A stretch of 20,895 nucleotides of DNA from a virus: the IMG/VR virus record IMGVR_UViG_3300023176_003548, positions 1 through 20,895 of that record; one strand, given 5' to 3'. Shown here piece after piece: positions 2,169 through 20,633 of the stretch (position 1 is the stretch's first letter; every line of letters starts with the position of its first letter). The notes under the pieces are model-generated. The model worked only from the letters and a program-made list of their open reading frames with translations, was not told where the DNA came from and made no database searches. The translations under genes and the position numbers were made by a program.

Positions 2169-3666
2169 ATTAATACTTCAAAAGAAAAATGAAGCAACTA
2201 TGTTGGTAGGTTGTGATTATGGTATAGGTGCAGAACTTTCAGAATTTTTCTCGTTCTTTGTGCCTGGCTACAAATTCATGCCTAGCTATCGAAATAAAGT
2301 ATGGGATGGTAAAATAAGATTATTTAATCAAGCATCTCAAGAAATGCCATTAGGTTTACTTCCATATGTAAATGAATTTTGTGAAAAAAGAAATTATGAA
2401 ATAGATTATGAAGATAGTGAGTATGGCTATCCGCACCAAGTAAATGAAGTAAATCCAAAAGAAATAATGTCTTTCATCGAAAGCTTAGACTTGCGTAGTA
2501 GAGGTGAATCTATAAAAATTCGTGATTATCAGTTTGATGCTATATGTGAAGGAATTAAACGTAAAAGAGCGGTATTACTTTCGCCTACAGGATCAGGAAA
2601 ATCACTTATCATTTATGTAATAATGAGATGGTTTCTAGAACACCATGATCAAAAAGCTCTTGTTATTGTACCAACCACATCATTAGTAAGACAAATGTAT
2701 TCTGATTTTGAAGACTATTCTTCTCATGACCAGTCATTTATATCAAATGAAGAATGCCATGTGATTTATTCTGGCCAGCCAAAAACAAATATACAAGAAC
2801 GGGTTTTTATTAGTACTTGGCAATCTATTTACAAATTGCCAGTAACATGGTTTGAACAATTTGGTGTAGTGTTTGGCGATGAATGTCATGGGTTTAAATC
2901 TAAATCATTAACTTCAATTATGAATAAAGCGCGTAAAGCATCATACCGTTTTGGAACTACCGGCACTCTTGATGGAACTCAGACCCACCAGCTAGTACTC
3001 GAGGGACTTTTTGGTAAGGTGTTTAAAGTTACTACAACCAAGACATTGCAGGATAATGACACGTTAGCACCTCTAAATATTTTAATGGTTGTACTTGATT
3101 ATGATGAAGAAACGAAAAAAGTTTTCGGCAGTAAAACATATCATGATGAAATTGATTTTATTGTAAAGAATGAAAAAAGAAATAATTTTATACGTAACTT
3201 GGCACTAGATCAAACTGGTAATACGCTTGTATTATTTCAATTTGTTGAAAAGCATGGTAAAGTTTTATTTGATTTAATTGAATCTAAAGCTGATATAAAT
3301 AGAAAGGTATTCTTCGTTTCAGGTAATACCGAAGCCTCAGATAGAGAAGCTATTAGAAAAATAACAGAAGGCCAAAAAGATGCGATTATCGTCGCTAGTC
3401 TTGGGACTTTTAGTACTGGGATTAATATTCGCAATCTTCATAACATTATCTTTGCTAGTCCATCCAAGTCTCAAATTAAAGTCTTGCAGTCAATTGGCCG
3501 GGGACTTAGAAAATCAGAAGATGGTAGGACTACGCAGCTCTTTGATATTGCAGACGACTTGCACTGGAAATCAAGAAAAAACTATGCCTTAGTTCATGCC
3601 GAGGAAAGATTAAGGATATATAAAAATGAGAAATTTAAATGCAACGTGTACAAAGTAAAAATGTAA
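2152..3666 (+). CDS. uvsW: UvsW RNA-DNA and DNA helicase
   Basis: 504 residues, matching T4 UvsW (about 503). It is an SF2 helicase that unwinds R-loops and recombination intermediates and shuts off origin-dependent replication. The N-terminal domain ends with VWDGKIRLFN (near residue 50-59). Walker A is SPTGSGKS (144-151), the DExH box is DECH (243-246), motif III is GTTGTL (268-273), and motif VI near the C-terminus reads QSIGRGLRKS. The start is uncertain: TTG at 2152 (GGAAG at 2143-2147) or GTG at 2161; both overlap the end of uvsY. A TATAAATA octamer at 3294 inside the gene is probably coincidental. Confidence 0.95.
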   Translation: MKPVDKLILQKKNEATMLVGCDYGIGAELSEFFSFFVPGYKFMPSYRNKVWDGKIRLFNQASQEMPLGLLPYVNEFCEKRNYEIDYEDSEYGYPHQVNEVNPKEIMSFIESLDLRSRGESIKIRDYQFDAICEGIKRKRAVLLSPTGSGKSLIIYVIMRWFLEHHDQKALVIVPTTSLVRQMYSDFEDYSSHDQSFISNEECHVIYSGQPKTNIQERVFISTWQSIYKLPVTWFEQFGVVFGDECHGFKSKSLTSIMNKARKASYRFGTTGTLDGTQTHQLVLEGLFGKVFKVTTTKTLQDNDTLAPLNILMVVLDYDEETKKVFGSKTYHDEIDFIVKNEKRNNFIRNLALDQTGNTLVLFQFVEKHGKVLFDLIESKADINRKVFFVSGNTEASDREAIRKITEGQKDAIIVASLGTFSTGINIRNLHNIIFASPSKSQIKVLQSIGRGLRKSEDGRTTQLFDIADDLHWKSRKNYALVHAEERLRIYKNEKFKCNVYKVKM

Positions 3667-4103
3667 TGCTAAGACAAATTAAATTAACTAATGGTGAAGA
3701 AATTATTTGTAAGCTTTTGAATACAGAAGATAGTAAAGAAACCGGTGAGATTTTAGTTAATGATTGTTTACGTTTGCATAAAGTAGAGATAAATCGAAAT
3801 ATCCAATATCATACTTTTAGACCTTGGATGATAATGAAAGATGAAGTTCAAGATGTTATATCAATAAACACTATGCATATTGTAGCGATGTGTATACCAT
3901 CTATTGAATTAAAAACACAATTTAAATTAGCTTTAAGAGATATAAAAGAATCAGCTAATGAAAAAGAACATTATTCTTTAGACGATTGGATGAAAAAATT
4001 AGATGAAATGCAAACCGCGACTGAATATGATATGATTGACGATGGCGATTCTAATGGTAAAGTAATTTCGTTAGCAGAATATAATAAAGACAAGTTACAC
4101 TAG
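3666..4103 (+). CDS. Conserved phage protein of unknown function between uvsW and gp55
   Basis: 145 residues from ATG 3666, which overlaps the uvsW stop in a TAATG junction. An in-frame ATG at 3639 would add nine residues. The N-terminal LRQIKLTNGEEIICKLL reads like the first strands of an Sm-like beta barrel, and the middle contains FRPWMIMKDEVQDVISI. The C-terminal third is charged and helical (MKKLDEMQTATEYDMIDDG). I do not recognise a named T4 gene. Its place between the recombination and late-transcription genes suggests a nucleic-acid role, but that is inference. An early promoter on the opposite strand points back into this gene from 4135-4162. Confidence 0.7.
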   Translation: MLRQIKLTNGEEIICKLLNTEDSKETGEILVNDCLRLHKVEINRNIQYHTFRPWMIMKDEVQDVISINTMHIVAMCIPSIELKTQFKLALRDIKESANEKEHYSLDDWMKKLDEMQTATEYDMIDDGDSNGKVISLAEYNKDKLH

Positions 4104-4134
4104 TATCTCCACCCACCACAAAAGGTACTCTATT

Positions 4135-4162
4135 ATTATACCATATCTGGCGCGAGTGTAAA
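4135..4162 (-). promoter_or_regulatory. Minus-strand early promoter (antisense to the upstream genes)
   Basis: Read on the minus strand, -35 is GTTTACA (TTTACA at 4162-4157), the spacer is 16 nt, and -10 is TATAAT (4140-4135) preceded by TGG, an extended -10. This has the same elements as the plus-strand early promoters in the window, with one base less spacing. It fires leftward into the 3' end of the gene ending at 4103, where no convincing minus-strand ORF exists. Confidence 0.65.
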
Positions 4163-4196
4163 CCCCTAAAATGCAATATTATGAAAAAAAAAGTTG

Positions 4197-4225
4197 TTTA
4201 CATTTGCTAATTTTTATGATAGAAT
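4197..4225 (+). promoter_or_regulatory. Early promoter of gp55
   Basis: GTTTACA (TTTACA 4197-4202), 17-nt spacer, TGA then TAGAAT (4220-4225). Expected transcription start is near 4232, leaving a leader of about 17 nt with GGAG at 4240-4243. This supports ATG 4249, not the in-frame TTG at 4234, as the gp55 start. Confidence 0.8.
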
Positions 4226-4248
4226 ATAATTAATTGATTGGAGTGATT

Positions 4249-4839
4249 ATGGCAAAAAAATCTAAGAATGTACATTATGTGAATAATAGTGAATTTTCTC
4301 TCGCTATTGTGGAATATGTAAAATCAGTAAACCTTGCTAAAGAACAAGGCACAGAATTACCAATTGTTCCTGATTACATTGCAATGTGTTTTCTAAAAAT
4401 TGCTGAAAATCTTTCTCATAAATCAAACTTTATTCGTTACACTTATAGAGAAGAAATGGTAATGGATGCTGTTGAAAACTGTCTTAAAGCTGTAGAAAAT
4501 TATAATATTAATGCTACAACAAGAACAGGTAAGCCGAATGCGTTTGCTTATTTTACACAAATTATTTGGTATGCTTTCTTAAGAAGAATTCAAAAAGAAA
4601 AGAAACAACAAGAAATCAAACAAAAATATATGTCACAATCAGGCGTAGAAGCATTTATTATGCTAGGCGATGAAGAAGGTGGCGGAATTGTTGCTTCTCA
4701 TTTTGTTGATGTACTTAAAGATCGTATTGAAAAAGTTAAAATATACGATACTGAAATTAAAGAATTTACTAAAAAAGAAAAAGTTAAAAAGAAAAATAGA
4801 TTAGCTGATTCTAATCTAGAGGAATTTTTTGAAGAATGA
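4249..4839 (+). CDS. 55: gp55 late-transcription sigma factor
   Basis: 196 residues (T4 gp55 about 185). gp55 is a minimal sigma factor that directs host RNA polymerase to TATAAATA late promoters, activated by the gp45 clamp and gp33. The N-terminal VHYVNNSEF matches T4 YNYVNNKEL. The sigma-2-like helices follow: AMCFLKIAENLSHKSNFIRY, EMVMDAVENCLKAVENYN, FAYFTQIIWYAFLRRIQKEKK. The acidic/aromatic tail SNLEEFFEE parallels T4's SLDFLYE clamp-binding motif. ATG 4249 has GGAG at 4240-4243. It ends in an ATGA overlap with gp47. gp33 is not in this window. Confidence 0.93.
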   Translation: MAKKSKNVHYVNNSEFSLAIVEYVKSVNLAKEQGTELPIVPDYIAMCFLKIAENLSHKSNFIRYTYREEMVMDAVENCLKAVENYNINATTRTGKPNAFAYFTQIIWYAFLRRIQKEKKQQEIKQKYMSQSGVEAFIMLGDEEGGGIVASHFVDVLKDRIEKVKIYDTEIKEFTKKEKVKKKNRLADSNLEEFFEE

Positions 4840-5897
4840 AAATAGCTATCTTGAATGATACGCACTGCGGAATACGTAACAGTTCCGAAGTGTTTCTAAA
4901 TAATGCTGCTAAATTTTATGATGAAATATTTTTTCCATACTGCAAAGAACATGATATTAAGCAAATCGTTCACTTGGGCGATTACTATGATCATCGTAAG
5001 TTTGTTAATTTTAAAGCTCTCAATCATAACCGTAAACATTTCTTAGATAAATTAAGAGATTATGGCATGTCTATGGATATTATTCCAGGCAACCATGATA
5101 CATACTATAAGAACACAAATGACTTGAACTCTTTAAAAGAGCTTCTTGGTCATTTTATGAATGAAATTCATATTATTATGAAGCCAACAGTCATGGATTA
5201 TGACGGATTTAAATTGGCAATGCTCCCTTGGATTACTTCAGAAAATTATGATGAATCCATGAACTTTATTAAGAACTGTAAAGCCGATTGGCTAGGTGGA
5301 CATCTTGAACTCAATGGATTTGAAATGATGCGAGGTGTTCGAAATACTCATGGTATGGATCATAAGCTTTTTTCTCGTTTTGAAAAAGTTTTAACAGGTC
5401 ATTATCATGTCGGTTCAATACAAGATAACGTACATTATCTTGGTTCTCAAATGGAGTTTTTCTGGAGTGATGCGCATGACCCAAAATATTTTCACGTTCT
5501 TGACACATCTACAAGAGAACTGGAAAGAATACAAAACCCTCATACTTTGTTTCATCGTATTCGTTATGACGATGATGGGTATGACTACACTAATTATGAC
5601 GTATCTCAAGCTGATGGCAAGTTTGTAAAAATAGTTGTAGTAAATAAATCTGACCTATTTACATTTGATCGATTTGTTGATAGAATACAGAATAGGCCAA
5701 TACATGAACTTAAGATTGCTGAAAACTTTAGCGAGTTTGTTGGTGAAAATGTAGAAGATGAATCAGTTTCATTAGAAGATACAGAAACACTTCTTGATAG
5801 TTATGTTGATGCGGTGGAAACTGACTTAGATAAAGACCGTATAAAAATTAGTATGAAAAAATTATTGACAGAAGCACAGGCTCTCGAAATCGTATGA
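4836..5897 (+). CDS. 47: gp47 Mre11/SbcD-like recombination nuclease subunit
   Basis: 353 residues (T4 about 339). With gp46 it resects double-strand ends to give the 3' tails used for recombination-dependent replication. Metallophosphoesterase motifs appear in order: NDTHCG (7-12), GDYYDHR (near 48-54), PGNHDTYY (near 84-91), GHLELNG and TGHYHVG (mid-protein). It overlaps gp55 by ATGA (4836-4839) and gp46 by ATGA (5894-5897), so all three are likely coupled. An early promoter lies inside the gene at 5658-5686. Confidence 0.96.
   Translation: MKIAILNDTHCGIRNSSEVFLNNAAKFYDEIFFPYCKEHDIKQIVHLGDYYDHRKFVNFKALNHNRKHFLDKLRDYGMSMDIIPGNHDTYYKNTNDLNSLKELLGHFMNEIHIIMKPTVMDYDGFKLAMLPWITSENYDESMNFIKNCKADWLGGHLELNGFEMMRGVRNTHGMDHKLFSRFEKVLTGHYHVGSIQDNVHYLGSQMEFFWSDAHDPKYFHVLDTSTRELERIQNPHTLFHRIRYDDDGYDYTNYDVSQADGKFVKIVVVNKSDLFTFDRFVDRIQNRPIHELKIAENFSEFVGENVEDESVSLEDTETLLDSYVDAVETDLDKDRIKISMKKLLTEAQALEIV
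5658..5686 (+). promoter_or_regulatory. Intragenic early promoter in gp47, reading toward gp46
   Basis: TTTACA (5658-5663), exactly 17 nt, TGA then TAGAAT (5681-5686). Same geometry as the intergenic early promoters. Transcripts would start near 5693, about 200 nt before the gp46 ATG. Confidence 0.6.
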
Positions 5898-10989: not shown

Positions 10990-11454
10990 ATGACAGGCGT
11001 ACAATCACTATTCCCACGTTCATCTTTTGTTGGCTTTGACCACTTATTAAACGAACTGGATTACGTAGCAAAACATTCACAAGATCATTACCCACCACAT
11101 AATATTTTAAGAACAGGTGAAACAGATTACCTGATCGAATTGGCAGTGGCTGGCTTTAGTAAAGACGAACTTAGCATTGAAGTTAAAGATCGTACTCTTA
11201 CTGTAAAGGGTGAACACGTGAGTAAAGGTCGCGAGTATATTCACCGTGGTATTTCCACTAAGAAATTCAAACGCACCTTCAGGCTGTCTGAGCACGTACA
11301 CGTAAACGGAGCGGATCTCATAGATGGAGTATTGTCAGTAGAACTGAAATACGAAATTCCACAGGAACTGCGTCCTCGTAAAATCGAAATCGGTCATTAC
11401 GAGGAATTAACAAATGACACAGACACTAAAGAGCTTCTTACAGAAGCTGATTAA
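10990..11454 (+). CDS. hsp20: Hsp20 / IbpA-like small heat-shock protein
   Basis: 154 residues. The alpha-crystallin domain spans about residues 38-135. ETDYLIELAVAGFSKDELSI is its opening strands, LTVKGEH is the mid-strand, FKRTFRLSEHVHVNGADLIDGVLSVEL is the dimer/strand region, and a C-terminal RKIEIG lies in the usual IxI position. It is an ATP-independent holdase; in phages it probably protects capsid or scaffold proteins. hsp20 genes near gp43 are known in marine T4-like phages. It has its own late promoter, a structured leader and a strong AAGGAG. Codon use is C/G-richer than its neighbours and resembles gp23, consistent with high late expression. The last 41 nt overlap the next gene. 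Confidence 0.94.
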   Translation: MTGVQSLFPRSSFVGFDHLLNELDYVAKHSQDHYPPHNILRTGETDYLIELAVAGFSKDELSIEVKDRTLTVKGEHVSKGREYIHRGISTKKFKRTFRLSEHVHVNGADLIDGVLSVELKYEIPQELRPRKIEIGHYEELTNDTDTKELLTEAD

Positions 11455-15771: not shown

Positions 15772-16182
15772 ATGTCTGATTGGGCAAATGATATCATGAT
15801 GATGCATCACAAATTTGGTGTACGCGAATGGTTTGAAAAAAATAAAGAAGATAAAGATCTTATGAATACGTATCTTCGCTTTCGTTTAAATATGGTTCGC
15901 GAAGAACTAGATGAAACATGCGATGCTATTGAAGCAAAAGATCCAGAAGAAATTGTTGATGGTCTTATTGATCTTTGTGTCTTTGCAATTGGTACATTAG
16001 ATGTGTTTGGCGTAGATGCAAATGCGGCATGGGATAAAGTCTATGAAGCTAATATGGTAAAATCTCCTGGTGTAAAAGAAGGACGCCCAAATCCATTTGG
16101 ATTGCCTGACTTAATTAAACCAGAAGGCTGGACTTCACCAACACATGAGGGTAATCATGGAGATCTCAATAACTGTTTTTAA
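15772..16182 (+). CDS. MazG-like nucleotide pyrophosphohydrolase
   Basis: 136 residues from ATG 15772 (GGAG 15757-15760); ATG 15715, in a TAATG overlap, would add 19. The all-alpha NTP-pyrophosphohydrolase signature is present: REELDET (E44, E45, E48), then VDGLIDLCVFAIGTL (D63, D67) and KVYEANMVKSP. These acids bind Mg and the nucleotide triphosphate. MazG-type enzymes hydrolyse noncanonical or regulatory nucleotides; phage MazG has been proposed to alter ppGpp or nucleotide pools, but its substrate is uncertain. The C-terminal GLPDLIKPEGWTSPTH is an additional tail. Confidence 0.85.
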   Translation: MSDWANDIMMMHHKFGVREWFEKNKEDKDLMNTYLRFRLNMVREELDETCDAIEAKDPEEIVDGLIDLCVFAIGTLDVFGVDANAAWDKVYEANMVKSPGVKEGRPNPFGLPDLIKPEGWTSPTHEGNHGDLNNCF

Positions 16183-17086
16183 ATCAGTTTTTGATAATAA
16201 AACACATCGAAGAATGGATTTCTCAAGCTTTAACGAGTTTGAGAAATTTCTATATGATTTATCTAAAGTACATAAGAAAGGTAAAAAAGATGCTCAACTT
16301 ATATCACCAGCTACTTATGAGCCTAACACAACACGGGCAAACAAGAATGTGGTTGATTGGGGAGGTTGGTGTGCTGTTGATGTTGACGACCATGAATTTA
16401 AGGGTGACTTAAAAAATGAGCTTATTAGTCGTTACGGTAAATACACTTTTATTTGTTATTCTACTGCAAGCAGCAAATCTGACTTTCCAAAGTTTCGTAT
16501 GGTCTTCCCAACTAAAACAAGAATTAGATCAGATAACATCAAACATTTCTGGTACGCACTCAACACAGAACTTGGATCCATTGGTGATAAGCAAACTAAA
16601 GACTTATCACGAATGTATTATATACCTGGTGAATACGCTGGCGCTTTCAACTTTATCTTTTCTAATTCTGGCGATTATATAAATCCAAAAGAATTGATGA
16701 GTAAACACGACTATGTTGAGAAAAAAGCAAGTTCTTCTTTCCTTGATCGTTTACCTGAAGATTTACAAACTCAAATTATAGAATATCGTAAAGCACAACT
16801 TGATAACACATCCATCACTTGGACTGGATATCGTGATTGCCCGTTCTTTCCTCGTAAACTTGAAGCTGAATATAAAACTATAAGTAATACAGGATGGTAT
16901 CATAAGATGTATCAAATCATGGTTGCAGTTGCAAGTAAAGCTTTGCAAAATAAGTATCCAATTACATCTAAAGAAATAGCAGATTTGTGTCGTGAACTTG
17001 ATGCTGAAACTGGAAATTGGTATGCCAATCGCCCGCTTGAAATAGAAGCAGATAGAGCTTTAGAATATGCATATAAAAATGCATAA
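16157..17086 (+). CDS. Archaeo-eukaryotic primase (AEP)-like protein, candidate
   Basis: 309 residues from ATG 16157 (GAGGG 16147-16151); ATG 16145 would add four. Overlaps the MazG-like gene by 26 nt. Features fit the AEP/RepB primase-type core: WCAVDVDDHEF with D75-x-D77 as metal ligands, FICYSTASSKSDFPKFRMVFP as the nucleotide-binding strand with a basic FR, then DKQTKDLSRMYYIPG with an acidic residue and aromatic strand. A C-terminal helical region (about 190-309) includes GWYHKMYQIMVAVASKAL and might be a primase C-terminal-like helical domain. T4-like phages use gp61 primase, so a second primase-fold protein would be accessory. This is pattern recognition; a replication-initiation or DNA-repair role is possible. 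Confidence 0.55.
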   Translation: MEISITVFKSVFDNKTHRRMDFSSFNEFEKFLYDLSKVHKKGKKDAQLISPATYEPNTTRANKNVVDWGGWCAVDVDDHEFKGDLKNELISRYGKYTFICYSTASSKSDFPKFRMVFPTKTRIRSDNIKHFWYALNTELGSIGDKQTKDLSRMYYIPGEYAGAFNFIFSNSGDYINPKELMSKHDYVEKKASSSFLDRLPEDLQTQIIEYRKAQLDNTSITWTGYRDCPFFPRKLEAEYKTISNTGWYHKMYQIMVAVASKALQNKYPITSKEIADLCRELDAETGNWYANRPLEIEADRALEYAYKNA

Positions 17087-17091
17087 AATGG

Positions 17092-17120
17092 TTTACATTT
17101 AAAAAGAAATATGGTAGTAT
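17092..17120 (+). promoter_or_regulatory. Early promoter of the GIY-YIG/ParB gene
   Basis: GTTTACA (TTTACA 17092-17097), 17 nt, TGG then TAGTAT (17115-17120). The next ATG (17127) is only 6 nt after the -10, so the transcript is probably leaderless. Confidence 0.78.
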
Positions 17121-17126
17121 TATATT

Positions 17127-18323
17127 ATGGATTATGAAGCATTTGTATATCTGTGGACAAACACAGTAAATAATAAGAAATATATTGGCTATCATACTGG
17201 TAGTGAATATGATGGATATGACACTTCTGCAACTTCTGAAGAAATGAATGAAGCTTTTGCTAAAGGAGAGTTAAAACGTGAAATAGTTGCCTACGGGACA
17301 ACGCAAGATATGATAGCTTTGGAGAGAAAAATGCTACTTGAAGTTGATGCCAGAAATAACTCTGAGTATTATAATAAATCTAATGGTGGAGGTAAAGATT
17401 TAAAAGGATTTATTAAGCCTTCACTTGATACGCTACAAGAACAAATTTTAAACAAGTCTTTTAATATTCAGTCTATTGAAAAAGATTCTGTCGCAGCTTA
17501 TGATAAATTTCAGGTGCGATTTAATGAGATTGACTCAAAGCATTTAAAAAATATTAAAGAAAAAATTGATGATTTAAACGGTGATACTAGTGAGTTTGAA
17601 CCAGTAAATGTTTTAGAAGATTATAATGGTAAAGGATTGCATTTAATTCTAGATGGAAACCATCGCATCACTGCTACAATGATGTCAAAACGAGCTAAAT
17701 ATATTCCTGTGCAATACATCCCAAAATCTGCTTATAAGGTGTACACTACTCTTGAATTAGAAGCTCTTGCTAATCGTTTGAATCCTTTACCTGATAAGCC
17801 TGCTTTGTCTGTAAATAAAGATGATGCCATTAAGTTTATTTTAAAACGTAATGAAGAAGGTTTAGAAATTAATTCTGAACAAAATATTCAAGAGCTTTTA
17901 AGCTGGGGCTTTACTAAAAAAGCTGCTACTGGTGTTATCACTACTGCACAAACACAAATAGAAAATTCTATTGCTATTCCTTCCGGAGCAGTTTGGATTA
18001 ACTGGAAAGATAAACGTAAAAAACAATTGGAAAGTATTGTTGAACAATATAGAGATAAAGATACAATTGCTATTCATGCATCATCAGGTGGTTTTCGTTT
18101 AGATCGTTTGTTGGAGACTTCTGCAGACTTTCCAAAGAAAATGAAAGCAGTAGTTGTAATGTATCATCCAACACCTGCAGCAGAGAAAAAATGGTTTAGA
18201 GAATATTTACCAAAACATGAAAAAACAATTAAAGCTCGTATTAGTATGAGAATTAATTTTATCTATCTTGAAACTATTGACTATAATGCTGGTTTACAAG
18301 ATTCATTAAATGTGGTAGAATAG
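17127..18323 (+). CDS. GIY-YIG endonuclease-like / ParB-like domain fusion protein
   Basis: 398 residues. The N-terminal 95 residues resemble a GIY-YIG nuclease: FVYLW (the GIY position is degenerate), KKYIGYHTGSEYDGY, a glutamate in ALERKMLLEVD and the terminal EYYNKSNGGG. Residues about 105-205 resemble a ParB/sulfiredoxin-like domain, including LILDGNHRITATMMS (D176, G177, N178, H179, R180). The remaining ~190 residues, including WINWKDKRKKQLE and KMKAVVVMYHP, are unrecognised. The product could be a homing-type nuclease, an anti-competitor nuclease or an enzyme with DNA-binding ParB domain. The gene has an early promoter with no Shine-Dalgarno and a predicted leaderless start; a second early promoter is at its 3' end. 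Confidence 0.75.
   Translation: MDYEAFVYLWTNTVNNKKYIGYHTGSEYDGYDTSATSEEMNEAFAKGELKREIVAYGTTQDMIALERKMLLEVDARNNSEYYNKSNGGGKDLKGFIKPSLDTLQEQILNKSFNIQSIEKDSVAAYDKFQVRFNEIDSKHLKNIKEKIDDLNGDTSEFEPVNVLEDYNGKGLHLILDGNHRITATMMSKRAKYIPVQYIPKSAYKVYTTLELEALANRLNPLPDKPALSVNKDDAIKFILKRNEEGLEINSEQNIQELLSWGFTKKAATGVITTAQTQIENSIAIPSGAVWINWKDKRKKQLESIVEQYRDKDTIAIHASSGGFRLDRLLETSADFPKKMKAVVVMYHPTPAAEKKWFREYLPKHEKTIKARISMRINFIYLETIDYNAGLQDSLNVVE
18293..18321 (+). promoter_or_regulatory. Early promoter at the end of the GIY-YIG/ParB gene
   Basis: GTTTACA (TTTACA 18293-18298), 17 nt, TGTGG then TAGAAT (18316-18321). It lies in the last codons of the upstream gene. Start near 18328 is followed by GGAG (18336-18339) and ATG 18347. 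Confidence 0.8.
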
Positions 18324-18346
18324 TTGAATAAGACTTGGAGTAATAT

Positions 18347-18697
18347 ATGAAAGAATCACTTAAAATCCTGCAAAAAGCTGCAGAAGTACAAACTAAAAAA
18401 GGTAATGATTACCAGAATCCTAACTCACGAGTTCGTCAAGCTGATTATTATCCTCGAGGTTGCGCAACTCTTCTTGATACAATGGCTGCAAAAGTATTAC
18501 GTATGCAATCAGTGCTTGAAGCTATGGAGCTTGATCCAAACTATTCACCAAACTTTGAATCACTTGAAGATTCATGCATTGATATTATTAATTATGCATC
18601 TTTCTTTGCTGCTTATATGAATGGTGGTATTGATGGCCAAGATCCTAACCGTGATTTTCTAAATCGCCCTAAGAAAGTATTAAATGATGAACAATAA
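18347..18697 (+). CDS. DUF1599-like all-alpha protein (nucleotide-modification/MazG-like)
   Basis: 116 residues with GGAG 7 nt before the ATG and its own early promoter. The pattern KKGNDYQNPNSRVRQADYYPRG, then DTMAAKVLRMQSVLEAM, then SLEDSCIDIINYASFFAAYM fits DUF1599, an all-alpha family that I associate with phage nucleotide-modification loci. The helix-rich acid pattern (K..R....ED...D..NY) recalls MazG-type pyrophosphohydrolases. Family call from motif memory; substrate unknown. It overlaps the next gene by 11-14 nt. Confidence 0.72.
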   Translation: MKESLKILQKAAEVQTKKGNDYQNPNSRVRQADYYPRGCATLLDTMAAKVLRMQSVLEAMELDPNYSPNFESLEDSCIDIINYASFFAAYMNGGIDGQDPNRDFLNRPKKVLNDEQ

Positions 18698-18911
18698 ATA
18701 TACACTTGAAGTACAAAAAGACGAAGAAAGTGGTGAGCTTTTCTTTGAATTTCCTGATGCTTTAATGAATCAAATGGGATGGGATGTGGGTGACACCCTT
18801 ATTTGGGAAGAATTACCTAATTCATCTTGGAGTTTAAGTTTAAAAAAGAAAGAAGAAAATGAAAATACTAATAATGGGACTTCCGGGATCGGGGAAGACG
18901 CACCTAGCTAA
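18684..18911 (+). CDS. AbrB/SpoVT-like small protein
   Basis: 75 residues from ATG 18684 (ATG 18687 adjacent). The core YTLEVQKDEESGELFFEFPDALMNQMGWDVGDTLIWEE fits the AbrB/MazE swapped-hairpin pattern (FP...L..lGW..GDtL.We), usually a dimeric DNA-binding domain. The last ~20 residues, rich in Asn/Gly/Glu, overlap the next gene by 53 nt in another frame and read as a low-complexity tail dictated by that gene's start. The Shine-Dalgarno is weak, so translational coupling to the upstream gene is likely. Could be a transcription regulator or antitoxin-type protein; no toxin is adjacent. Confidence 0.7.
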   Translation: MMNNKYTLEVQKDEESGELFFEFPDALMNQMGWDVGDTLIWEELPNSSWSLSLKKKEENENTNNGTSGIGEDAPS

Positions 18912-19278
18912 AAGATTGCACGTGCATTTAAACTGTGCGTGGTATAATGCTGATAAAGTTAGAGAAATGGCTAATGATTGGGACTTTACTGATGCTGGTC
19001 GTAGACGACAGTCTGAACGTATGAATACTATAGCTACCTTCGAAGCAGTACGTGGCCGTACTGTTATTTGTGATTTTGTGTGTCCAACTGGAGAAACACG
19101 TAAAGAGTTTAATGCAGATATCACTATTTGGATGAACACAATAGAAGCTGGACGTTTTGATAATACAAATAAAATTTTTGAAGAACCTACTAACTTTGAT
19201 TATATTATTGAATCGTTCCAAAGTGATGAATGGATTTTAGACTTAGCGAATAGAATGAAGGAAACATATAATGTTTGA
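18859..19278 (+). CDS. Adenylylsulfate-kinase-like P-loop kinase
   Basis: 139 residues (cellular APS kinases are about 200). Walker A is GLPGSGKT (7-14). YNADKVREMANDWDFTDAGRRRQSERM matches the APS-kinase region DGDnVR...L.FS..DR.enIRR. VICDFVCPTGETRKEF resembles the following strand and loop, and FEEPTNFDYII the C-terminal part. APS kinase phosphorylates adenylylsulfate to PAPS, the donor for sulfotransferases such as the one at 877-1710. A different small P-loop kinase is possible since the family is broad and this copy is short. It overlaps the AbrB-like gene by 53 nt and the next gene by 8 nt. Confidence 0.72.
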   Translation: MKILIMGLPGSGKTHLAKRLHVHLNCAWYNADKVREMANDWDFTDAGRRRQSERMNTIATFEAVRGRTVICDFVCPTGETRKEFNADITIWMNTIEAGRFDNTNKIFEEPTNFDYIIESFQSDEWILDLANRMKETYNV

Positions 19279-19681
19279 TTATAAAAAGCCCACTACACAA
19301 ATGCTTGGTCGCTGGCAGCCTTGGCACGACGGCCACTCTGCACTATTTAAAAAAGCTTTAGCTGAAACCGGACAAGTTGTGATTATGGTCCGAGATGTCG
19401 GTGGCATTATTGGTGATGATGCTGGTGGAGGTAGAACAGAAAATCAAAATGATAATCCTTTTAAATGGAATCAAGTAAGACAAAATATTGTTTTAGGTCT
19501 TGAAAAAGAGGGGTTTACAGAAGGTAAAGAATATGTTATAATGCAAGTACCAAATATTGTAGACATTAGTTATGGCCGTGGTGTTGGATACACTTTCACA
19601 CAGCATGATCTTGGGGAAGAAATTCATAATATTTCTGCTACTAAGATTCGTAAAAAAATGAGAGAAGAAGGAACATTATAA
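19271..19681 (+). CDS. HxGH nucleotidyltransferase (cytidylyl/adenylyltransferase-like)
   Basis: 136 residues. GRWQPWHDGHSALFKKAL holds the HxGH nucleotide-binding motif (HDGH), and ISATKIRKKMREEG matches the second signature (ISxTxIR) of the cytidylyltransferase, NMN adenylyltransferase and ATP sulfurylase superfamily. It transfers an NMP from an NTP; the substrate cannot be fixed. Neighbours suggest either nucleotide-sugar synthesis or APS formation for the adjacent kinase. It starts 8 nt inside the kinase gene and stops in a TAATG overlap with the next. An early promoter lies inside it. Confidence 0.82.
   Translation: MFDYKKPTTQMLGRWQPWHDGHSALFKKALAETGQVVIMVRDVGGIIGDDAGGGRTENQNDNPFKWNQVRQNIVLGLEKEGFTEGKEYVIMQVPNIVDISYGRGVGYTFTQHDLGEEIHNISATKIRKKMREEGTL
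19514..19542 (+). promoter_or_regulatory. Intragenic early promoter ahead of the coiled-coil/KdsA genes
   Basis: GTTTACA (TTTACA 19514-19519), 17 nt, TGT then a perfect TATAAT (19537-19542). Start near 19549 would give a transcript for the coiled-coil gene and kdsA independent of the genes upstream. Confidence 0.72.
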
Positions 19682-19860
19682 TGGACGATCGTAGAGATAA
19701 ACTTATTCGCGAATTAGAAAATAAAGTAACTATGTTAGAGAATAATGTTTATCAACTACAACAACAAGTTCAAAACGCCTATAAGCGTATTGCAGAACTT
19801 ACCGCCGATAATCGAGAGTCTATTCCTATTGATCGCAATTATACTGGTTTTAAAGAATGA
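19681..19860 (+). CDS. 59-residue coiled-coil protein
   Basis: ATG 19681 in a TAATG overlap with the nucleotidyltransferase, and TGA at 19858-19860 overlapping the kdsA ATG as ATGA. The product MDDRRDKLIRELENKVTML, continuing ENNVYQLQQQVQNAYKRIAEL, has leucine/valine heptad spacing of a two- or three-stranded coiled coil, followed by a short polar tail TADNRESIPIDRNYTGFKE. No family recognised. The exact fit between neighbours at both ends makes it a real gene. It may be an assembly partner of one of the adjacent enzymes (inference). Confidence 0.82.
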   Translation: MDDRRDKLIRELENKVTMLENNVYQLQQQVQNAYKRIAELTADNRESIPIDRNYTGFKE

Positions 19861-20633
19861 TAAGAATTATAGCAGGCCCATGTCAACACGAATCATTAGA
19901 GCAATCATTAGAAATTGCTAAAGAATGTAAACGGGTATGTGACTTATATGGTTTTGAATATTTTTTTAAAGCTAGTTACGACAAAGCTAATCGTACTCAT
20001 ATCGATGGAAAACGCGGACTTGGAATTAATGACACGCTACCAGACTTTCAAAAGATTAGAGACGAAGGTTTTAAAATATTAACTGATTGCCACACAGTTG
20101 GAGAAATTAATCGCTGTAAAGGCGTAGTAAATGTTATACAAATTCCTGCGTTTCTATGTCGTCAAACAGATTTGATACAAGCTGCTTGTAAAACAAATTG
20201 TATTGTTAATATTAAGAAAGGCCAGTTCCTTGCACCGTGGGATGTGAAAGGCATTCTAAGCAAAACAGAAGGTGCAAAAGAAGTTTGGATAACAGAGAGA
20301 GGTACTAGCTTTGGTTACAATACACTTGTTACTGACTTTACTGGCATCCAGTATATGCTTGACAATGCTGGTGTTCCTGTGGTATTTGACGTCACACACT
20401 CAGTCCAGAAGCCAGGAGGACAAGGTGACAGTTCTGGTGGTAATAGGGATTATGTTGGCCCTCTTAGCCGAGCTGCCGCTGCTATGGGTGTTACTAACTT
20501 CTTTTTAGAAGTTCATGCTGATCCAGATAATGCTCCTTCAGATGGACCTAATATGTTAAAGCTTGAAAATTTTGCAGAAACAATTAGACAAATGTATTTT
20601 ATTAATAAAACAATAAGAGGATTTGAAATATGA
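19857..20633 (+). CDS. kdsA: KdsA, 3-deoxy-D-manno-octulosonate-8-phosphate synthase
   Basis: 258 residues. It condenses phosphoenolpyruvate and arabinose-5-phosphate to Kdo-8-phosphate, precursor of the LPS inner-core sugar Kdo. AGPCQHES (6-13), FKASYDKANR (37-46), QIPAFLCRQTDL, VNIKKGQFLAPWD, TERGTSFGYN and FDVTHSVQKPGG are diagnostic. All four residues expected for the metal-dependent class are present (C9, H181, E218, D229 by comparison with the Aquifex enzyme), whereas the E. coli enzyme has Asn at the Cys site. The start is ATG 19857 inside the preceding stop. It overlaps the next gene by ATGA. kdsB and other Kdo genes are not in the window. Confidence 0.95.
   Translation: MIRIIAGPCQHESLEQSLEIAKECKRVCDLYGFEYFFKASYDKANRTHIDGKRGLGINDTLPDFQKIRDEGFKILTDCHTVGEINRCKGVVNVIQIPAFLCRQTDLIQAACKTNCIVNIKKGQFLAPWDVKGILSKTEGAKEVWITERGTSFGYNTLVTDFTGIQYMLDNAGVPVVFDVTHSVQKPGGQGDSSGGNRDYVGPLSRAAAAMGVTNFFLEVHADPDNAPSDGPNMLKLENFAETIRQMYFINKTIRGFEI

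Follow-up and report, generated by a model that had tools for sequence, protein, structure and literature searches.

The gene at 17127-18323 is best explained as a free-standing homing-type endonuclease, in which a GIY-YIG domain is joined to a ParB/KorB-like module. It would move between phages as a bare open reading frame (ORF), is here predicted to be expressed without a leader from the +1 of a promoter (P1), and carries the predicted promoter of the next gene (P2) in its last codons. The probability of this reading is put at roughly 0.6. The window (the whole stretch of DNA analysed, 20.9 kb) is from a T4-like marine phage and encodes a polymerase, clamp, clamp loader, gp46/47, a gp55-like sigma factor and a primase-like gene. 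By polymerase the closest named isolate was phage C48C1 (58% identity to that of the window), and the only close DNA match among phage records was a short stretch of Pelagibacter phage HTVC008M. The features are as follows.

16145-17086, + strand: primase-like gene, upstream of the GIY-YIG–ParB gene (phrog_9765, E 1.6e-44)
17092-17120, + strand: promoter P1, predicted +1 at 17127 (TTTACA, 17-nt spacer, extended -10 TGG-TAGTAT)
17127-18323, + strand: gene for the GIY-YIG / ParB-like / alpha-beta protein, 398 aa; its ATG coincides with the predicted transcription start
17127-17396, + strand: GIY-YIG domain, aa 1-90 (phrog_314 homing endonuclease, E 1.8e-10; I-TevI catalytic domain)
17460-17786, + strand: ParB/sulfiredoxin-fold domain, aa 112-220, motifs QVR and DGNHR (ParB 6sdk; phrog_1033)
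17787-17975, + strand: helical domain, aa 221-283, placed as in KorB (8qa9) and Noc (7nfu)
17994-18290, + strand: C-terminal small alpha/beta domain, about aa 290-388 (pLDDT 79 when modelled separately)
18293-18321, + strand: predicted promoter P2, inside the last codons of the gene, TTTACA-N17-TAGAAT, encoding ...LQDSLNVVE; placed for the next gene
18347-18697, + strand: DUF1599 (nucleotide-modification-associated) gene, downstream; leadered, Shine-Dalgarno (SD) sequence GGAG, served by P2

Predicted structure of the protein

The structure was predicted with AlphaFold2 using 20 family members (contig rows only), giving a mean pLDDT of 79. The GIY-YIG nuclease fold was recovered, with the I-TevI catalytic domain matching aa 3-87 at Z 8.0, and was followed by a ParB fold, to which ParB 6sdk was matched over aa 112-220 (Z 10.3, rmsd 2.3, 94 residues). 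The domain order read from the sequence in the first-pass annotation thus held in the structure prediction that it had proposed as a check. The GIY-YIG assignment is supported at sequence level by phrog_314 (E 1.8e-10) and the ParB assignment by phrog_1033 (best E 1.8e-6, within the family), and the helical domain was placed from KorB 8qa9 (Z 9.8 over 112-282) and Noc 7nfu (Z 8.8 over 101-275); Z values of 8 to 10 for the GIY-YIG and ParB/KorB parts are moderate only. The remaining residues, about 190, had been called unknown. This no longer applies to aa 221-283, which are KorB/Noc-like and helical, and still applies to about aa 290-388, where the alpha/beta domain gave no clear fold match (best structural Z 5.4, best Foldseek E 0.069). 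Searches of Pfam and NCBIfam returned no family above cut-off for the whole protein, and a PDB sequence search with it returned chance matches only.

The FVY and YIG motifs are conserved, and E66 and N83, at the positions of the catalytic Glu and Asn, are present in at least 90% of family rows. The basic residue of GIY-YIG helix 1 is Lys in proteins that have the GIY-YIG part only (L131, L132, L144) and is Ser/Thr or another residue in this family, so nuclease catalysis is not assured. The ParB-like part retains DGNHR and is at most a candidate CTPase. Comparison of the gene with its L011 copy gave dN 0.017 and dS 0.31, which is purifying selection.

In its predicted model the protein resembles I-TevI in the GIY-YIG catalytic fold. 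I-TevI differs in being intron-encoded and in carrying a zinc finger and HTH instead of a ParB-like DNA-binding part (PMC2988022, PMC10448857). The model also resembles the ParB, KorB and Noc CTPases, in which the N-terminal fold is followed by a helical domain (Z 8.5-10), but a nuclease is fused N-terminally, the C-terminal domain is another one and no ParA-like gene was seen among the window genes looked at. Cyanophage ParB/sulfiredoxin-domain proteins (SynMITS9220M01, P-SSM3, S-H9-1, MED4-213; about 340-370 aa) share the ParB-like and C-terminal parts and are without GIY-YIG, as checked in sequence for SynMITS9220M01 and by length and fold match only for the others.

Family distribution

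Relatives were encoded by 40 marine viral contigs, most of them full-length and at 25-100% identity, and further ones by Methylophilales phage Melnitz and Marine virus AG-345-O18. Judged by sequence, the protein belongs to an uncharacterised marine-virus family and is not a one-off. No relative was found in the plasmids searched, or in bacterial and archaeal genome contigs by a single-protein search. The architecture is modular, because its parts also occur separately: the GIY-YIG part joined to other tails (in L016-L022, L131, L132 and L144), and ParB plus the C-terminal part without GIY-YIG in SynMITS9220M01 and, at the same genomic slot, in L091.

In the open-access literature no paper was found on a GIY-YIG–ParB fusion. 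The SNIPE paper, which contains both 'GIY-YIG' and 'ParB', was rejected as a precedent, ParB there being a fluorescent label. Two separate loci were recorded along the way. In L016 (6001-6624) and L017 (130-753) a GIY-YIG homing-like gene with Arg/Glu/Lys-rich repeats directly follows gp43, and in this type of locus a sugar epimerase comes after the primase. In L072 (6056-7108) a ParB-like protein with a DGRTRGS motif occupies the same slot and is perhaps a distant relative.

Transfer as a bare ORF

The interval between primase and DUF1599 (window 17087-18346; counterparts in L027-L102) varies in cargo. By eye from sequence, its cargo is a PEP carboxykinase-like protein in L027, a nucleotidyltransferase and a cupin in L028-L030, and restriction-like and other genes elsewhere. 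The gene is a stand-alone ORF, with both occupied and empty sites among relatives: it is absent from L027 and L028, whose polymerases are 85-88% identical, and present in the more distant L012 (60%). In the empty-site phages L041 and L071 the order is primase stop, promoter, DUF1599. The neighbourhood analysis called for in the first-pass annotation therefore gave both absence and presence of the gene in relatives, in a slot of changing content.

Transfer boundaries were read from the gene copies of L116 and L118, where 2411-3604 of the former and 3996-5192 of the latter share 93.4% DNA identity. This stretch begins at base 2 of the L116 ORF and extends to its last codons, so that it spans the ORF. 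The L118 primase is 55-56% identical to the L116 and L117 primases and the L118 polymerase 56% identical to that of L117; in L118 the right-hand neighbour gene differs and the P2 copy is retained but damaged. In every lineage pair the 100 nt upstream of the start were at the shuffled level, and the first 100 nt of the ORF were 49-90% identical. The pattern suggests, from sequence comparison, that the gene moves between diverged phages as a bare ORF without 5' signals of its own. A free-standing mobile homing-type endonuclease is proposed because of the ORF-bounded identity, the unrelated flanks and the patchy presence; unit transfer is not in itself proof of endonuclease-driven homing.

The 5' signals differ by lineage. 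A promoter at +1 is found in the window and L006-L011, an AGGTG SD in L012-L015, and a stop-start overlap in L116 and L117 (TAATG) and in L115 (ATGA). Leaderless expression would accordingly be a trait of this phage lineage, because the sister copies have no such promoter in front of them and rely on an SD or stop-start overlap instead.

At the 3' end, AGLQDSxxVV is encoded by GGTTTACA...GTGGTA(T)AAT, which is P2 of the DUF1599 gene. The window, L012, L115, L116, L117 and L121 all have this element where the gene ends, and codon identity in the last 12 alignment columns was 70/80 against 1144/2057 (56%) elsewhere. The overlap of P2 with codons is shown by this conservation, and its activity as a promoter is predicted from the sequence. 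The DUF1599 promoter was also seen within the coding sequence of unrelated upstream genes in L038, L067, L083 and L091.

T4 HEGs likewise carry host promoters inside their coding regions (PMC2988022), and the gene shares with T4 SegA-SegG a stand-alone GIY-YIG ORF, an intergenic slot near replication genes, patchy presence and the embedded promoter of the next gene (PMC2988022). It is longer than SegA-SegG and has the ParB/KorB-like module and the extra alpha/beta domain in addition, an architecture absent from the known Seg proteins, as had been noted. The earlier statement that this architecture is not that of a recognised T4 homing endonuclease is right in that it is not a Seg protein, and needs amending in that the gene behaves as a mobile free-standing endonuclease gene and is homing-like.

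Passage between phages could also reflect ordinary selection for a useful gene, were the protein an effector nuclease and not a homing enzyme: the ParB-like module would load on the DNA of the host or of a competitor, which the GIY-YIG domain would cut early in infection, for nucleotide scavenging or exclusion. We consider this somewhat improbable. The sigma-70-type promoter at the gene fits such a role, as does the adjoining nucleotide-modification-associated gene, and the proteins with ParB and C-terminal parts in the same slot (L091) and in cyanophages imply that the ParB module functions in its own right without GIY-YIG. The promoter is, however, absent from sister copies, the nearest GIY-YIG matches are homing endonucleases, and transfer with ORF-exact boundaries into unrelated flanks, with patchy presence, is typical of free-standing HEGs.

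Promoter P1 and the start codon

P1 consists of a -35 TTTACA (17092-17097), a TG (17112-17113) and a -10 TAGTAT (17115-17120), the end of which is separated by 6 nt from ATG 17127. The same scan recovered the annotated T4 early promoter Pe133295. Its -10 ends at 133302 and its name marks 133295 as the start, 7 nt past the -10; this +7 rule therefore puts the +1 of P1 on the A of ATG 17127. From the promoter geometry and the T4 calibration, mRNA driven by P1 would begin with AUG at 17127. Inspection of the sequence just upstream of the ATG found no SD-like 4-mer, and the leaderless geometry claimed earlier on these grounds was reproduced. The ATG itself, also as first called, is secure as the start, because there is no alternative in-frame start near it, the next in-frame ATG being codon 61, and because the N-terminus MDYEAFVY is kept in sister copies.

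A sigma-70 match of 9/12 means little alone, with 57 found in the window and 45 expected. With the extended -10 required, 11 sites were found on the gene-bearing strand and 4 on the other, against 4.5 expected per strand from shuffles. The 40-nt intergenic region between primase and ORF is identical in the related phage L011, and the four-fold degenerate sites of the gene differ there at 25/137 (18%). At that rate an unchanged region has a probability of 3e-4, and P1 is therefore probably a real promoter, although its -10 is among the weaker ones (4/6 matches). It is identical in L006, L008, L010, L011 and L024.

The consensus from 103 marine sites agrees with that of T4 promoters from the same scan, and P1 fits the T4 early-type consensus. 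'Early' is applied to P1 by analogy, through its motif likeness to T4 early promoters, and the protein would be made at the very start of infection, as first proposed, when judged from promoter type only. An early-type P1 is atypical for such a gene, the HEG-specific promoters of T4 being middle or late and none early (PMC2988022); here the sigma-70 early-type promoter stands at the start codon, unlike in SegA-SegG. Read-through RNA from the primase gene, which ends 40 nt upstream, could be another route of expression.

P1 may have originated as the promoter of the DUF1599 gene, for which the evidence is moderate. Among 164 other promoter sites, the closest to P1 was the DUF1599 promoter of L028, which is without the gene (23/33 variable positions; mean 12.8, sd 4.2). 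Taken further, P1 could be a mere leftover of that promoter, the ORF having landed on its +1 and the protein being made, weakly or not at all, from read-through RNA. The similarity to the L028 site and the order of elements at the empty sites of L041 and L071 speak for this, but P1 is unchanged in L011 despite the 18% four-fold change, its placement recurs as a class in kin (below), and an origin from the DUF1599 promoter is compatible with present use. A P1 without present function is on balance quite unlikely.

A predicted leaderless class in related phages

Related contigs were scored for the distance d between the end of the -10 and the gene ATG, the class being defined at d=7. With a stricter promoter form, about 140 contigs gave 161 distinct sites on the gene strand and 4 on the other, and permuted -35 boxes gave 7-8 sites in the same contigs. 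A gene ATG was located at d=7 for 16/120 promoter sites and 0/234 controls, which were extended -10 sites without a -35 (Fisher 1.5e-8). P1 was outside the test set, its -10 matching at only 4/6 positions, and so the test is independent of the window site. The distribution of d was bimodal, peaking at 7 and forming a second, broad cluster at 18-36 whose members mostly have an SD; no distance of 14-17 occurred in the gene set. An SD was present in 50/60 genes with d of at least 15, and 19/21 genes at d 5-9 had neither an SD nor a later in-frame start with one.

Genes at d=7 included the gp43 polymerase (L033 2064, L046 2035, L058 1846, L076 582, L098 660) and primase-like genes (L070 2053, L073 4963, L081 1348). 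Conserved polymerase N-termini, e.g. MFYTSVVRYGNS, begin exactly at the d=7 start. Three long contigs (93, 153 and 91 kb) had leaderless placement in 1/16, 1/7 and 2/7 promoter-proximal genes. In HTVC008M (76441-76476; L152 26441-26476) the annotated endonuclease V gene begins where an extended -10 promoter, whose -35 is weak (TTGCCA), has its predicted +1. In T4, 0/12 promoter-proximal genes were leaderless in 100 kb, and C48C1 had few such promoters and zero leaderless cases. By sequence the d=7 layout in marine T4-like phages is a minority one but recurrent.

It is very improbable that ATG-rich stretches following the promoters, or wrongly called starts, produced the class as an artefact: the genomes are AT-rich, and one group at d=5 proved to be a chance in-frame match within a nucleotidyltransferase gene and was dropped from the histogram, but ATGs open genes in 16/18 cases at d=7 and in just 4/12 at d=8, the polymerase N-termini and the HTVC008M annotation share the d=7 start, and T4 has no case.

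In E. coli leaderless mRNAs are rare (PMC7566282), but alphaproteobacteria commonly have them, with 375 in Caulobacter and 171 in S. meliloti (PMC4117421). The class would fit an alphaproteobacterial-type host, which that of the window may be. Like the alphaproteobacterial mRNAs and that of lambda cI, the transcripts would have AUG at or near +1 and no SD (PMC4117421, PMC9031893); unlike them, they are predicted to come from a class of promoters of sigma-70 type, in T4-like phages that are lytic. A distinct sigma-70 leaderless class of this kind, including polymerase and primase, with the mobile GIY-YIG–ParB gene expressed by landing at +1, is suggested tentatively, at somewhat less than even odds. 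The polymerase and primase cases open leaderless expression to direct test in cultured phages such as HTVC008M.

Proposed mechanism

In the preferred reading, a mobile homing-type endonuclease would pass from phage to phage as a bare ORF that encodes a GIY-YIG cutter of I-TevI type fused to a DNA-binding module like those of ParB and KorB. At each landing it would borrow a translation signal from the flank, namely an SD in L012, a stop-start overlap in L116 and L117, and the promoter +1 here. In the window lineage host RNA polymerase would make mRNA from the AUG, on which ribosomes would initiate without an SD. P2 in the 3' codons would leave the DUF1599 gene with a promoter after insertion, and spread would occur by cutting of gene-less relatives and subsequent repair copying. 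This would bring together three subjects that are mostly treated separately: the expression of mobile endonuclease genes after landing, the pairing of a GIY-YIG cutter with a ParB-like DNA-binding module, and the regular use of leaderless translation by lytic phages of marine bacteria.

Neighbouring genes

For the DUF1599 gene, PF07659 exceeded its cut-off in the L012 and L116 homologues. At window positions 18859-19681, two overlapping ORFs, one kinase-like and the other nucleotidyltransferase-like, each match one half of the same PHROG (phrog_10255) and therefore represent a split or fused enzyme. A phage-borne DAHP-synthase-family gene and an Hsp20-like gene are located at 19857-20633 and 10990-11454, respectively.
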